From Bacillus sp. FJAT-52991 (GTDB lineage Bacteria; Bacillota; Bacilli; Bacillales; Domibacillaceae), in the NCBI RefSeq assembly GCF_037201805.1, contig NZ_CP147404.1, positions 1,884,001-1,948,000 on the forward strand: a stretch of DNA of 64,000 nt, in the 5' to 3' direction. Numbering within the stretch: the stretch's first letter is position 1; every line of letters starts with the position of its first letter. Below are positions 7,195 to 12,543 of this stretch, piece by piece. A program made the position numbers and the translations under genes. The notes under the pieces are model-generated. The model ran no database searches. It was not told the origin of the DNA and saw only the letters and a program-made list of their open reading frames with translations.

Positions 7195-7445
7195 TACGTC
7201 AAGATATTGGACATACTCCAGTTAAGTTTTTTGGTTCTGCACAACTTCCATTCATAGAATGTAGAGTTGGAAATTTGCGGAAGTTGCGTCCGAAGAAATG
7301 TGGGAAGGGACAACTGGATTATCTCCAGATTTCACGCTGTTTCACGACATATATTTTCATAGGCATCTGGTGTTAAATATCCGATGCTTCCATGAATTCT
7401 TTTGCGATTGTACCAACCCTCTATATCGTTCCGCAGATCCGGCGT
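7195..7445 (-). mobile_element. IS3-family transposase remnant (3' end)
   Basis: On the minus strand, DIEGWYNRKRIHGSIGYLTP followed by DAYENICRETA and a stop at about 7332 is the typical C-terminus of an IS3-family OrfB integrase. About 35 residues survive. Beyond the stop, sequence near 7195-7240 (TTGGACATACTCC...GGTTCTGCACA) resembles a degraded IS3 terminal repeat. The rest of the transposase is absent, so this is a dead fragment. Confidence 0.7.
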
Positions 7446-7787
7446 AGGTGAAACAACTGTTGAAGCGTTAGCTGAGGAGCCGTAAAGTCCGTTTTTAACG
7501 TTCGATACATGACATCCCCTCCCTACTCGCTGGGCTGTGCCCTTCACGCTCCTTGAGGAAGGGGAATTCTCTCGGACTGTGTTAAATCATTAATGTTAAT
7601 TGACAATACAGTTGTTTAATTCTTATGGGACTAACGGAGCAGATTAGTAGCTGGTTCATTAGAAGAGAGAAAAGTAAATACTTCAGAGAAACAAATGCTC
7701 CGAACAAGCCTAAGCAAAAAATGAATAAAGTTAATTTAAATTACACATTCTATATGAGTACTACATTTCAATTGGAGGTTTTTTAAG
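7446..7787. other. gene-poor stretch with possible TnpB-element end
   Basis: No intact gene is seen. On the minus strand 7500-7575 contains GAATTCCCCTTCC...AGGAGCGTGAAGGGCACAG and AGGGAGGGGATGTCA, which resembles right-end/omega-RNA sequence of IS200/IS605 elements. No TnpB coding remains beside it. The rest is AT-rich upstream sequence of the yfhD-like gene. Confidence 0.35.
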
Positions 7788-8116: not shown

Positions 8117-8548
8117 TCACTTTATAATTAATTCCTTTTCAAGAAAAACGGCTACATCGTTCCAATCTTCTATTAGTGAATCTTCTTCATATTTTAATAT
8201 TCCAAAATTTACATTAAGATCTGGTTCATCTTCATAAAGTGAAAATTCTCGTATTAACGTACCATTTTCTATGACTATCACCTCTGCATTGAAGTCTTCA
8301 TCGTAGTAAGCATAGGTAACAGAACGGTCCTTTGCAAGTTTCATCCAAGATTCATTTGATAAACCAAAGAACGCTTCTCCTTCAAAGTCCACAAAATATG
8401 TCCAGCCACCTTCAGTTTCAGAAGCATGTATTGATTTATCCATACAATCCCCAGATTTGTTCCATTCACTATCTTCGTTCATCCAATCGTAATAACGTTT
8501 TTTAGCTTCTTCCAATGGCAAATTTATTTTAAAACAACATTCTCTCAT
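8117..8548 (-). CDS. hypothetical acidic cytosolic protein
   Basis: 143 residues, acidic, no signal or membrane segment. Motifs seen are INLPLEEAKKRYYDWMNED near the start and GGWTYFVDFEGEAFFGLSNE in the middle. Size, acidity and alternating beta pattern recall immunity-type proteins, but I recognise no family. The ribosome site is weak. It is transcribed toward yfhD and lies just beyond the rtcB 3' fragment. Function not assigned. Confidence 0.6.
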   Translation of the reverse strand: MRECCFKINLPLEEAKKRYYDWMNEDSEWNKSGDCMDKSIHASETEGGWTYFVDFEGEAFFGLSNESWMKLAKDRSVTYAYYDEDFNAEVIVIENGTLIREFSLYEDEPDLNVNFGILKYEEDSLIEDWNDVAVFLEKELIIK

Positions 8549-8636
8549 TTCGATTTACCACACTCATTTTATTTAGTGACCAATATTTTGGCTCTACTAG
8601 TAATTTTTCTTTATTAATCGAATGCATCCTTATATA

Positions 8637-9026
8637 TTAATTAGCTTTAAAGTTGTACAAAGGCTTAATTACTTGTTCAATCGTTAAAGACTCTTCAATA
8701 TTATTCATAATTTCATCTATAGGCTTATAAACCATTGGTGCTTCATCAAGCGTGCTTTCTCCAACAGATGTTGTCCATATACCATCCATAGAATCCTCGA
8801 AATCATGTAATGATAACATTTGTTTAGCCTTAGATCGCGACATGATTCGACCAGCTCCATGTGGTCCGGAGAAATTCCAATCTGGATTTCCCTTTCCAAT
8901 GGCGATGATAGAACCGTCTCTCATATTAATTGGAACGATGACTCGCTCATCTTTTTGTGCAGAGATGGCACCTTTACGCAAAATCATATTCTCCATATCA
9001 ATGTAGTTATGGATGGTAGTAAAGTT
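8637..9026 (-). pseudogene. rtcB: rtcB 3' fragment (RNA ligase C-terminal part)
   Basis: Read leftwards from the IS end, QNFTTIHNYIDMENMILRKG continues into AISAQKDERVIVPINMRDGS and GPHGAGRIMSRSKAK and ends IKPLYNFKAN. This is the C-terminal third of the short Bacillus-type RtcB. It includes a metal-binding His (TIHNY) and the His of the SGPHGAGR motif, which is guanylylated in studied RtcBs. It has no start of its own upstream of the IS boundary; the internal ATG at 8996 would give a 119-residue piece. The N-terminal part, with an intein, lies at 11002-12186. Roughly 170-190 residues of the expected enzyme are absent, so the gene is broken. Confidence 0.85.
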
Positions 9027-9232
9027 TTGAACCTCCCACGATTGAAATCGCAGGATTCTAACATCCTTTCGGACGAAAGACCTGATGATTTAAACCAACC
9101 GTAAGATTCCTGTTTCAATGAGAACCGCATTCCTAATGGAACGTCTTACACTCTCTCCATCGCCCCAAAATCTCGGACAAACAGCACACTGGGCGCTGAC
9201 AGGCACACTCCGCAGTTCCTGCGGTGGATAGA
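9027..9232 (-). ncRNA. probable omega RNA (reRNA) scaffold and IS right end
   Basis: The stretch downstream of the tnpB stop is noncoding and highly structured on the minus strand: GCAG/CTGC near the stop, TTCCATTAGGAA, CTTTCGTCCGAAAG, and the terminal CGATTTCAATCG hairpin before TTCAA. TnpB nucleases use an RNA from exactly this position as their guide. The guide would be the roughly 16 nt beyond the element (9011-9026), which is rtcB sequence. Extent and processing are inferred. Confidence 0.6.
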
Positions 9233-10462
9233 TTAAACTGGTATTTGAAGGCTTCGTAACATACGGATGCCTTCTTCTTTTATATTTCTAGCTGCATTGA
9301 TATCTCGATCGTGCTCAGTCCCACAGTGAGGGCATATCCAGACACGTTCTGAAAGAGATAGAAGAATATGTTTTTCTTTACACCCATTACATTGCTTGGA
9401 AGAAGCGAAAAAACGATCGATAAGAATGACTTTTTTATTGCTCCAATCTGCTTTATAAGATACGAATGTTTTGAACATGGACCAACTAACATCGGCAATG
9501 CTTCGTGATAACTTTTTATTCTTGATAAGACCTTTTACATGTAAATCTTCCAACACGATCACTTGGTTTTCGTTTACGAGTTTTCGAGATTCCTTATGTA
9601 AAAAATCTTTCCGTTTGTTCGTAATATGTAAATGCAACTTACTTATTTTTCGTTGTAATTTCTTATAGTTGGCACTACCTATTTTCTTGTGCTTTAGTTT
9701 TCGTTGAAGTTTGGCTAATGTAACGAGGTTCTCTTTCAGGTATCTAGGGTTTTCAACTTTCTTACCGTTAGAATCGATAAGGAAATGAGAAAGTCCTACA
9801 TCCACTCCAATAATTTGATCCTCGGGAGTAGAGGTCCAGTCACCCTCTTCTTTAAGAGGCACTTTCTCTTCTATTTTTAAAGAAACATAATATTGACCAC
9901 TACTATGGTATTTCACCGTAGCTGATTTGATTTTCCCATTAAATCCATCCTTCTGAAACGTTTGACGATGTTTCTTAGAAAATTTAACTTTCACCTTTCC
10001 GATTTTAGGTAACTGAACCGTCTGCTTTTCAATATCCAATTGAATGTTTCCGTTCGTTTCTTTTGTAGAGAAAGATTGGTTGGATGTATGTTTTGATTTG
10101 AATGTTGGGAATTTGCTTTGCCCTTTAAAAAAGCGATCATATGCAGCGTCTACTTGCTCCATTGCACACTCATTTACAAATTTGTCGGGCTCTTTTAACC
10201 AATTGAATAATGGATGGTCCTTCAACGCATTAAACGATTTTTTGAATTCACCGTAATGAAGTGTTTCGCCAGTATTTTTATAGACTTCTATTTTTTCAGC
10301 TAAATAAAAGTTAAATACAAAGCGAGCACATCCAGCGAACTTATGAATTTTTTCTTTTTGAAGTTTTTTCGGTTCCATACGAAAACGAAGTCCGTAATGG
10401 CGTAACTGAAGTCCATCTTTTGCTAATTCAGCATTTCGTTGTTTGGTTGTTTTCCTTACCAT
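9233..10462 (-). CDS. tnpB: TnpB RNA-guided nuclease (IS200/IS605 OrfB)
   Basis: ATG 10462 is preferred over GTG 10471 because GGGGGTG lies 5-6 nt before it; product about 409 residues, normal for TnpB. An N-terminal helical/wedge region is followed by a split RuvC domain with all three acids visible: D in IIGVDVGLSHF, E in VIVLEDLHVKGL, and D in HDRDINAARN. The zinc ribbon CNGC...CPHC sits between the second and third. TnpB cuts DNA at a TAM-adjacent target using the element-derived RNA and favours element retention. It begins 12 nt after tnpA. No disabling change was seen, so it is probably active. Confidence 0.93.
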   Translation of the reverse strand: MVRKTTKQRNAELAKDGLQLRHYGLRFRMEPKKLQKEKIHKFAGCARFVFNFYLAEKIEVYKNTGETLHYGEFKKSFNALKDHPLFNWLKEPDKFVNECAMEQVDAAYDRFFKGQSKFPTFKSKHTSNQSFSTKETNGNIQLDIEKQTVQLPKIGKVKVKFSKKHRQTFQKDGFNGKIKSATVKYHSSGQYYVSLKIEEKVPLKEEGDWTSTPEDQIIGVDVGLSHFLIDSNGKKVENPRYLKENLVTLAKLQRKLKHKKIGSANYKKLQRKISKLHLHITNKRKDFLHKESRKLVNENQVIVLEDLHVKGLIKNKKLSRSIADVSWSMFKTFVSYKADWSNKKVILIDRFFASSKQCNGCKEKHILLSLSERVWICPHCGTEHDRDINAARNIKEEGIRMLRSLQIPV

Positions 10463-10474
10463 TACGAACACCCC

Positions 10475-10903
10475 CTACCTATCTTTCGGTCTACCGCGTT
10501 TTCTCGGTTTTACCTGTTGTTCTTGAATGTATGTTGTAATTTGTTCTTCTGTACGATCACTAACTGTGCAAATGAAGTAGGATGGATTCCAAAGATGGCC
10601 CCCCCACAATTGTTTTTTCAATTCAGGAAACTCTTTAAACAAATACCTAGCACTATTTCCTTTTAGAGCTTTCATTATGTTAGGAATGTAGTGTTGAGGA
10701 GAACATTCGATTAACATATGTAGATGATCCCCGTCTGTTTCCATTTCAACGATCGTAAACTCGTGTGTATGAGATTGTTCTAGTAAGATTTCTTTTAAAC
10801 GATCTTCAAGCGCACCACTAATGATGTTTTTCCGATATTTCACACACCAAACAATATGATATTGAATGGCGTAAACATAACCTCTACCTTTTTTAATTTT
10901 CAT
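10475..10903 (-). CDS. tnpA: TnpA Y1 (HUH) transposase, IS200/IS605 family
   Basis: I choose ATG 10903 (MKIKKGRGYVYAIQYHIVWC) because AGGTG lies 7 nt upstream; an in-frame ATG at 10930 is less likely. About 142 residues, the expected size. The HUH metal-binding pair is in DGDHLHMLIE, and the catalytic tyrosine is most likely the Y of TTYIQEQQ near the C-terminus. This enzyme moves the element as single-stranded DNA and inserts 3' of a short target. It is followed by tnpB in the same transcript. It appears intact. Confidence 0.93.
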   Translation of the reverse strand: MKIKKGRGYVYAIQYHIVWCVKYRKNIISGALEDRLKEILLEQSHTHEFTIVEMETDGDHLHMLIECSPQHYIPNIMKALKGNSARYLFKEFPELKKQLWGGHLWNPSYFICTVSDRTEEQITTYIQEQQVKPRKRGRPKDR

Positions 10904-10955
10904 TATATTCACCTGTAATAATAGTAACATATGTATTTTTTAAAACCAAAGAAAA

Positions 10956-10997
10956 AACGCCCTAACTTACGATTAAAATCACAAGTGTGCGGGCGTT
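10956..10997 (-). repeat. left-end hairpin of the IS element
   Basis: AACGCCC and GGGCGTT arms enclose two smaller dyads (CACA/TGTG and GAT/ATC) and are followed on the minus strand by a T tract. It lies just inside the inferred left end. IS200-type elements often carry a left-end hairpin that blocks read-in transcription, and this one has a terminator-like shape. Confidence 0.6.
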
Positions 10998-11001
10998 GAT
11001 C

Positions 11002-12186
11002 ATCAATGACGGCCACTTCCATGCCGCAGTTGCCTGTAACTACAACACAGCCATTACGTCTCATGATCCAATATCCTGTATTAGTAGTAAAACAATATTT
11101 AAATCCATCTTCAGAAGAAACAATTTGAATATCTGTCTTCGGTGTTCCAGCTAACTGCACTCTTGGTTTAGAATTAGCTACCAAACATCGATATAATTCT
11201 TTACCTTCCCTGATATCATGACTTATTGATGTGCGAATACCCTGCGTAGCAAAAGCGTACTGTACAAAATCTACATCTTCTTTATGAATACTACAATAAG
11301 ATCCGTGATCCATTGAATAATCCCAATGTTTCACTTCATCACAAATAATAGCTAATTGTTTTAAAGAAGCAGGATAAAATTTAGATATTCTTTTTTCCAT
11401 CATTGGAGTTTGAAAACGAAAATGAACAACATCATTATATACTTTCCGAGAATAACTAATATTAGCAGCTTCTAATAATCGCTCTATTCTTTCAATTTTA
11501 CGCTCTTTCTTTAGTTTAACTACACATACAGTATTGTTTTCTAAATAACCATCTGCCATAACCATAACTTGAACTCTAAGCTGTTCGTCGGTTAAAGGTA
11601 ATTCTGTTGATATCTTTAAATTAGGTATTTCAGTAATAAAATTATCACGGAAACCGAGTTTTAATTTGGAATGTTTATCAAATAATTCTTCAGCTGTTAA
11701 TATATAACGTTGCCCTTGACTAGTAGGTCTATGTTGTGAACCTTTCTCTACCAATAGAGTGTGCTCTTTGGATAGCATCTGATCAATGCCGTACTTAGTT
11801 TTTAAATGGTAAAATTCCGTTTCTTCTTTTTTAATAAAAGCGATAGGAACTTCAAAATGAGTATGATCTGTTTTAAGATCATATGTTGCAATTTCTTGAC
11901 CATTATATTCGGATATCTTAACCCAACCATTAGAAGATAAAAACTCTGTATCTTTATCAACGCAGCCAATGTCCACTCCAACTAAGTTTGGAACAATTTT
12001 ATCTTGAATGGTCATAGTTGTTCCGATCGTGCAGCCAGCTCCCGCATGAGTATCAGGCATAATCCGAATCTTGGAACCTTGTACAAATTCTTGGTTACAA
12101 AGCTCAGTAATTTGAGACATGGCTGTTTGTTCTACATTATCAGTAAATATTTTTGTTGTATTGTATTTTCCATTTAGCTCCAACAT
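11002..12186 (-). pseudogene. rtcB: rtcB 5' part with in-frame intein, truncated by the IS
   Basis: ATG 12186 has GAGGGAGAG upstream. Residues 1-74 are the RtcB N-terminus: IRIMPDTHAGAGCTIGTTMT, VPNLVGVDIG. Residues 75-386 are an intein. The extein resumes with CGMEVAVID and then meets the IS boundary; the frame reads on into the element to a stop near 10909, giving 425 residues. RtcB is the GTP-dependent 3'-phosphate RNA ligase. The two central metal-binding histidines expected later in the protein are absent. Even after splicing, only about 83 native residues would remain here, so no ligase activity is expected from this piece. Confidence 0.85.
11029..11964 (-). other. intein in RtcB at the GVDIG/CGM site (312 residues)
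   Basis: Starts with Cys1 (CVDKDTEFLSSNGWVKI, block A), has block B-like QMLSKEHTLLV with its His, a DOD/LAGLIDADG-like motif (VQVMVMADGYLEN) with a second helix region (VDFVQYAFATQGI), and ends in block F/G-like YWIMRRNGCVVVTGN, followed by Cys+1. The terminal Asn and +1 Cys needed for splicing are present. The penultimate His is replaced by Gly, as in some functional inteins. The insertion point is directly before the Cys that binds Mn in RtcB, the same site used by archaeal RtcB inteins as I recall them. The homing domain looks degenerate. Confidence 0.85.
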
Positions 12187-12267
12187 AATATAACTCTCCC
12201 TCTATTTTATCCACAAATATTTTAACTAAAATTTGGATTTTCATCTTATCTTATTATACATTATGCT

Positions 12268-12468
12268 TCAAATAACATCCTGCCCTTTCAGACGACGCCG
12301 CTCACTTCTTATCACATCAAGAACCTTGCCGTCCTTCCAGATGATCGTATCTTCGCTGAACTGCTTAGGTGTCACTTTCGTCAAATGGCCGTCTATAATC
12401 ACGTAAGCTACGTTTTCCATTAGATCAATTTCCGCTGTCATTTTTTCAAGGTTGATTGCTTTTTCCAA
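12268..12468 (-). CDS. XtrA/YqaO-family phage protein
   Basis: 66 residues. MEKAINLEKMTAEIDLMENV followed by AYVIIDGHLTKVTPKQF and VLDVIRSERRRLKGQDVI match the XtrA (PBSX) / YqaO (skin element) family along its whole length. The start is TTG 12468 with GGGGGAG about 9 nt upstream. In B. subtilis these small genes sit in the prophage regulatory/late region. Here it stands alone beside a broken neighbour, so it is a prophage leftover. Function unknown. Confidence 0.8.
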   Translation of the reverse strand: MEKAINLEKMTAEIDLMENVAYVIIDGHLTKVTPKQFSEDTIIWKDGKVLDVIRSERRRLKGQDVI

Positions 12469-12543
12469 GTCAAGACGCTCCCCCGATCTGTTAAAATATT
12501 ATTGTCGATAGTATTTGAAAGGTCAGGAGCTTTCTCGGCTTTT

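Follow-up and report, generated by a model that had tools for sequence, protein, structure and literature searches.

An ISDra2-type IS200/IS605 element in place of 552 bp between two TTGAT motifs: a candidate motif-to-motif replacement in an intein-bearing rtcB gene

The insertion of IS200/IS605 elements is usually described as a clean process that neither duplicates nor removes target DNA, and their excision as precise. How, then, did an insertion sequence (IS) of this family come to sit in the RNA ligase gene rtcB of Bacillus sp. FJAT-52991 at the very place where the central part of the gene is missing? The locus occupies positions 12186..8637 (minus strand, with the start at 12186) of a 64,000-nucleotide (nt) stretch of the genome (contig NZ_CP147404.1, positions 1,884,001 to 1,948,000; hereafter the window). 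The original prediction, made from the letters of the window, had placed two selfish elements in this gene, an intein and a TnpA-TnpB element, and had left open whether the insertion was accompanied or followed by a deletion sparing both IS ends. Both elements are confirmed inside rtcB, the central deletion is real, and a second copy of equal length elsewhere in the genome shows the IS ends to be intact. What is new over that prediction is the finding of the element's target motif, TTGAT, at both edges of the segment that was lost, which narrows the relation between deletion and insertion. Judged from the sequence, the motif at which the element cuts most likely determined the deletion, via either one replacement or two insertions and recombination.

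The interrupted gene, read on the minus strand throughout, begins with an N-terminal extein of residues 1-74 (11965..12186), recognized by its PF01139 match and by alignment to the rtcB genes of the loci L009 and L010. It continues with a 312-amino acid (aa) intein (11029..11964) and the extein stretch CGMEVAVID (11002..11028), which includes a first TTGAT (site 1, 11002..11006) touching the left end of the 1,975-base pair (bp) IS (9027..11001). Beyond the right end, a C-terminal remnant extends from N268 (numbered as in P0083, the RtcB of Bacillus sp. FJAT-42315) to the stop codon (8637..9026; PF01139 positions 294-423), with a DNA identity of 94% to L009 and 93% to L010. Two open reading frames (ORFs) correspond to this arrangement, 12186..10909 resembling the RtcB N-terminus (PF01139 profile positions 9-50) and 8996..8637 its C-terminus (profile positions 294-423). 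The predicted order of an intein ahead of the metal-binding cysteine and an IS nine extein residues further on thus holds, the intein lying directly before Cys75. The two flanks, given as CGMEVAVID and QNFTTIHNYID, are indeed not contiguous, but the glutamine of the latter stems from the last three bases of the element (CAA) and the host sequence resumes at N.

The extent of the loss was defined by comparison with uninterrupted relatives. A search for RtcB covered five genomes of the genus, the genome under study included, and found the protein in three, namely this genome, G001 and G002. G002 encodes a 396-aa RtcB without an intein, and the gene of G001 (L010, on contig C27) bears the intein and carries an in-frame stop early, at codon 36. 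In both uninterrupted genes, the two junction edges are 552 nt apart, corresponding to 184 codons in frame, where some 170-190 residues had been estimated to be missing; the lost segment is K84-D267. Since no base is common to either junction and the uninterrupted gene (0 shared bases), these edges are exact. The relatives speak against a naturally short RtcB: P0083 is one continuous protein of 396 aa, and P0001 from Bacillaceae bacterium SAOS 7, the closest whole protein among the matches listed (95% identity), is the same protein with an intein (708 aa). Within its own genome, the lost segment is absent, apart from seven short matches at E values up to 1 (the best of 43 bp, E 0.006), and no second rtcB was matched. 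The gene itself is predicted to be dead because the lost part includes GGGNH (143-147) and HSGSR (163-167), as the original prediction had supposed; HNYID and PHGAGR are still present in the window. We take the four motifs to contribute to the metal and guanylation sites of RtcB, which are not complete in the window gene. Both rtcB pieces score far under the cut-offs of the intein-containing RtcB families NF052663 and NF038162, as expected of a broken gene. Two of the five genomes of the genus (G003 and G004) gave no RtcB match and the G001 gene has its in-frame stop; rtcB seems to be dispensable or decaying in this genus.

The element itself has the hallmarks of the ISDra2 type. Its termini, read both from the two copies in this genome and from the window against uninterrupted rtcB, run from TTGAT directly into GATCAACG and, at the other end, from GGTTCAA directly into host DNA. 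Subterminal hairpins are found at both ends, the left one at 10956..10997 (DNA fold, z -2.60, 3 of 200 shuffles as good) and the right one, as a centroid structure, at 9029..9058 (z -1.76, 8 of 200 shuffles as good, hence weakly better than shuffled sequence). The first gene, tnpA (10475..10930), encodes a 151-aa Y1 HUH transposase with matches to PF01797 (1.6e-42; 144.9 bits against a cut-off of 23) and NF033573 (148 against 55). Its best matches in the PDB are 2xm3 (8e-44), 2xma and 2xo6, which we take to be ISDra2 TnpA, and both the HLH and the tyrosine regions are covered by the 2xm3 alignment. The second, tnpB (9233..10471), encodes a predicted RNA-guided endonuclease of 412 aa, with RuvC-like and zinc-ribbon regions matching PF01385 and PF07282 over their cut-offs and with PDB matches 8h1j and 8bf8 at about 1e-67; it exceeds the cut-off of NF040570 (322.7 against 100) and falls below that of NF038281 (IS200_TnpB; 397.4 against 425). 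Both frames are open, in line with the claim that they look intact, and both proteins are predicted to be functional. The only other copy in the genome (L011), about 1.25 Mb away, is likewise 1,975 bp long and differs by 18 substitutions and no indels. It looks like a plain insertion, with flanks that are adjacent in G002 and no visible loss. TTGAT precedes all 11 left ends examined, two in this genome and nine in two others (eight in G023 and one in G195, counted as matches starting within the first 8 bases of the element). The right ends elsewhere read GGTTCAA at six loci and GGTTCAT in G195.

The same motif marks both edges of the loss. In G002, G001 and B. badius, the left edge lies directly 3′ of a TTGAT formed by Ile-Asp codons and the right edge directly 3′ of a second TTGAT (site 2) formed by Val-Asp codons, and the distance between the two motifs is 552 nt in all three. 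The pair is thus present in three of the five distinct relatives whose DNA was read; Bacillus sp. 165 has neither motif, and a Blautia relative carries a sequence other than TTGAT at site 2, the script having failed to place its site 1. According to passages of PMC2806898, insertion of ISDra2 takes place 3′ of TTGAT, where the TnpA of the element cleaves, and according to passages of PMC8612924 TTGAT is also the motif needed by ISDra2 TnpB. With both edges of the loss placed directly after this insertion motif, we read the deletion as a product of the motif at which the element itself cuts. A random deletion that arose independently next to an ordinary insertion, and ended after TTGAT by accident, would be in keeping with the IS-adjacent deletions that are common in other IS families (parts of PMC11708052). 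However, given the left edge, the chance of a right edge after TTGAT is about 0.005 (0.0053, from 5 of 942 downstream positions, a figure calculated once the match had been seen), and we regard such an accident as highly improbable.

The similarity of the two sites extends beyond the pentamer. The 14 bases ending in each TTGAT form an imperfect direct repeat in which 11 of 14 positions match in L009 and L010, and 10 of 14 in B. badius, reflecting the similar peptides AIID and AIVD. Such a repeat invites the explanation that the element inserted once, after site 2, and that slippage or end-joining between the TTGAT repeats later deleted the DNA from site 1 to site 2 without any involvement of TnpA. 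Deletions between repeats of 4-10 bp have been reported in Deinococcus radiodurans (passages of PMC11276467), and the 11 of 14 matching bases ahead of the cut points, in L009 as in L010, would suit the same process. However, the exact repeat is 5 bp only, and in the window the motif is preceded by A, the base found at site 1 of the relatives, and not by the G of their site 2, so the switch would have to fall inside the five-base motif. A deletion of this kind appears unlikely.

An alternative that uses the element twice fares better. If two copies had inserted in the same orientation after both TTGATs, RecA-dependent recombination between them could have removed one copy together with the 552 bp, and this course of events yields the observed junctions exactly. 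The same combination of two insertions and recombination is one of the two options offered for a ~6-kilobase (kb) case in D. radiodurans in the consulted part of PMC11276467. On the other hand, two insertions would be needed in one 1.2-kb gene, and the only other copy of the genome is about 1.25 Mb away. The strand on which the element lies bears on this alternative and also speaks for the replacement favoured below. On the chromosome, dnaA is found at base 334 (C1:334), and the GC skew is negative in 7 of 8 window bins (-0.125 in the bin with the IS), which places the top strand of the IS on the inferred lagging-strand template, as expected for the IS200/IS605 family, and a lagging-strand preference would give two copies the same orientation. 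Two insertions followed by recombination are thus a possible explanation, to which we give less credence than to the one that follows.

The reading we favour, tentatively and at somewhat less than even odds, is that TnpA caused the 552-bp loss by attaching the element with its left end to TTGAT site 1 and with its right end to the base that follows site 2. The element would thereby have come to occupy the intein-bearing rtcB in place of the 552 bp between the two motifs, TnpA cutting at both of them on single-stranded lagging-strand DNA. This might have happened during insertion itself, or later, if a copy first inserted at site 2 had its left end re-joined to site 1. Several points weigh against such a replacement by TnpA. 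The replacement, the two insertions with recombination and the short-repeat deletion all yield identical letters, and neither kind of intermediate was found, be it an IS at one site of a whole gene or two IS copies. The edges are read from relatives and not from the pre-insertion sequence of this strain. TTGAT is common in the gene, occurring six times in the 1,191 nt of G002 rtcB, and G002 has a sequence other than TTGAT where L011 is inserted, which makes that site uninformative on the motif. A double-target cut by TnpA is not described in the passages of the ISDra2 literature consulted, and the corresponding part of PMC11276467 gives the right flank no special sequence requirement.

The case is also a single one, from one locus in an assembled genome. 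DNA matches to the element occur in 34 of 397 genomes of the order (this one included), are mostly short and provide none usable as a second case; for the G195 copy, no usable empty site was found among 4 genomes of its genus. Further relatives of TnpA within the genus are distant ones (28-39% identity), and among the best 120 of 3,448 matches the closest full-length TnpB is 75% identical, apart from P0121, an entry of 99% identity taken to be the TnpB of this very genome. Dependence on an assembly raises the question of whether the true locus is IS-552 bp-IS with the two copies merged by the assembler, which would give exactly the observed junction. Against this, the genome consists of 3 contigs with dnaA near the start of the chromosomal one, both IS copies are bordered on either side by native sequence of their own, and the 552 bp occur in none of the contigs. 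Moreover, four equally scoring genes for DnaA-like ATPases are placed apart, indicating that at least some repeats were resolved. An assembly collapse of this kind is therefore considered very unlikely, if slightly less so than the accidental deletion discussed above.

The replacement reading has a consequence for TnpB, the guide of which is predicted to be the first 20 host bases past the right end (9007..9026). This sequence agrees with the DNA at TTGAT site 2 of rtcB at 18 of 20 positions in G002 and G001 and at 17 of 20 in B. badius; a target of this kind is absent from Bacillus sp. 165. In its own genome, the 16-nt guide core has a zero-mismatch match at the rtcB locus only, and with two mismatches it finds nine further places, compared with 18 for a reversed control pattern. 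Passages of PMC11870625 describe TnpB as acting as a drive that cuts element-free plasmids. Taken together with the match to site 2, this precedent suggests by analogy that uninterrupted rtcB alleles would be the targets of TnpB, and that their repair would copy the deletion. A broader scheme can be put together from these elements, one that we consider possible but rather doubtful. In this ISDra2-type replacement mode, TnpA would swap the element for all host DNA between two target pentamers, leaving insertion-like junctions. TnpB would then cut uninterrupted alleles, because its guide would derive from the DNA past the second motif and those alleles retain this motif. Deletion and element would be copied together, and the endonuclease of the intein would act on that gene too, at a distance of 27 bp from the first edge.

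The intein, compared here with inteins that carry a LAGLIDADG-type homing endonuclease, is likewise predicted to be functional. In a 45-row alignment, for which 44 of 120 listed RtcB proteins were used, C1, H68, D138, G311 and N312 are invariant and the +1 cysteine is nearly so; we take C1, H68 and N312, together with the +1 cysteine, to be the splice cysteine, the block-B histidine and the C-terminal asparagine. The structure model has a predicted local distance difference test score (pLDDT) of 94.8 and a predicted template modelling score (pTM) of 0.90. It combines splicing and endonuclease folds, its top PDB matches being the homing endonucleases TliVMA, PhoVMA, PI-SceI and PI-PfuI (TM-score on the query, best chain each, 0.60-0.66; identity 10-14%). 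Profile scores stay under the cut-offs (TIGR01445, 14.5 bits against 24.5; PF14528, 12.7 against 22.5). The intein looks as intact as had been proposed and, if it still splices, would leave a 113-aa stub as its splice product.

Two further features lie outside these subjects. A short ORF at window 7332-7547 (minus strand) resembles what is presumably the C-terminal end of an IS3-type transposase. The DnaA-like ATPase genes mentioned above are open frames of 259 aa at C1:209145, C1:262081, C1:435463 and C3:39843 of this genome (G000), one of them on a small contig, and we assume that they may represent a multi-copy IS21-type helper gene. No Rfam match was found in window 8500-12500 at E values up to 1.

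If motif-to-motif replacement is true, it would constitute an easily overlooked route of gene deletion, visible only against an uninterrupted relative, and one that excision could not reverse. TnpB would then spread a deletion allele and not the element alone. As judged from titles and abstract openings, nothing comparable that combines an intein with TnpB was present among the matches listed, and none of the literature retrieved on RtcB with an intein dealt with this situation. For a deletion from TTGAT to TTGAT, the closest paper among the matches listed, as far as its consulted passages go, is PMC11276467.

Among the known systems closest to this one, ISDra2 (IS8301) of D. radiodurans has in common with it a Y1 TnpA with TnpB, hairpins close to either end, a guide from the right flank and insertion 3′ of TTGAT. 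It differs in host and sequence, and the element described here sits in rtcB at a 552-bp loss with two TTGAT edges. The intein-containing RtcB families (NF052663, NF038162) share an intein in RtcB, here just before the CGM cysteine, and differ in that the two window pieces fall far below their cut-offs. Deletions adjacent to IS150, IS5 and IS903 resemble the present case in that the IS stays and neighbouring DNA is lost; however, other transposases are at work, and the consulted part of PMC11708052 links the far edge to no fixed target motif. A further parallel is the 1999 genome of D. radiodurans, in which one ISDra2 copy replaces ~6 kb of host DNA (DR_0977-DR_0980) with its left edge at TTGAT, as stated in passages of PMC11276467 and also of PMC11219805. 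The authors of the former offered either a "jump-over" during transposition or two insertions and recombination. The Discussion of that paper does not address whether TTGAT precedes the right edge, whereas in rtcB the motif is found there in three relatives; the ambiguity between a single "jump-over" and two insertions thus becomes checkable at the right edge of the ~6-kb deletion.

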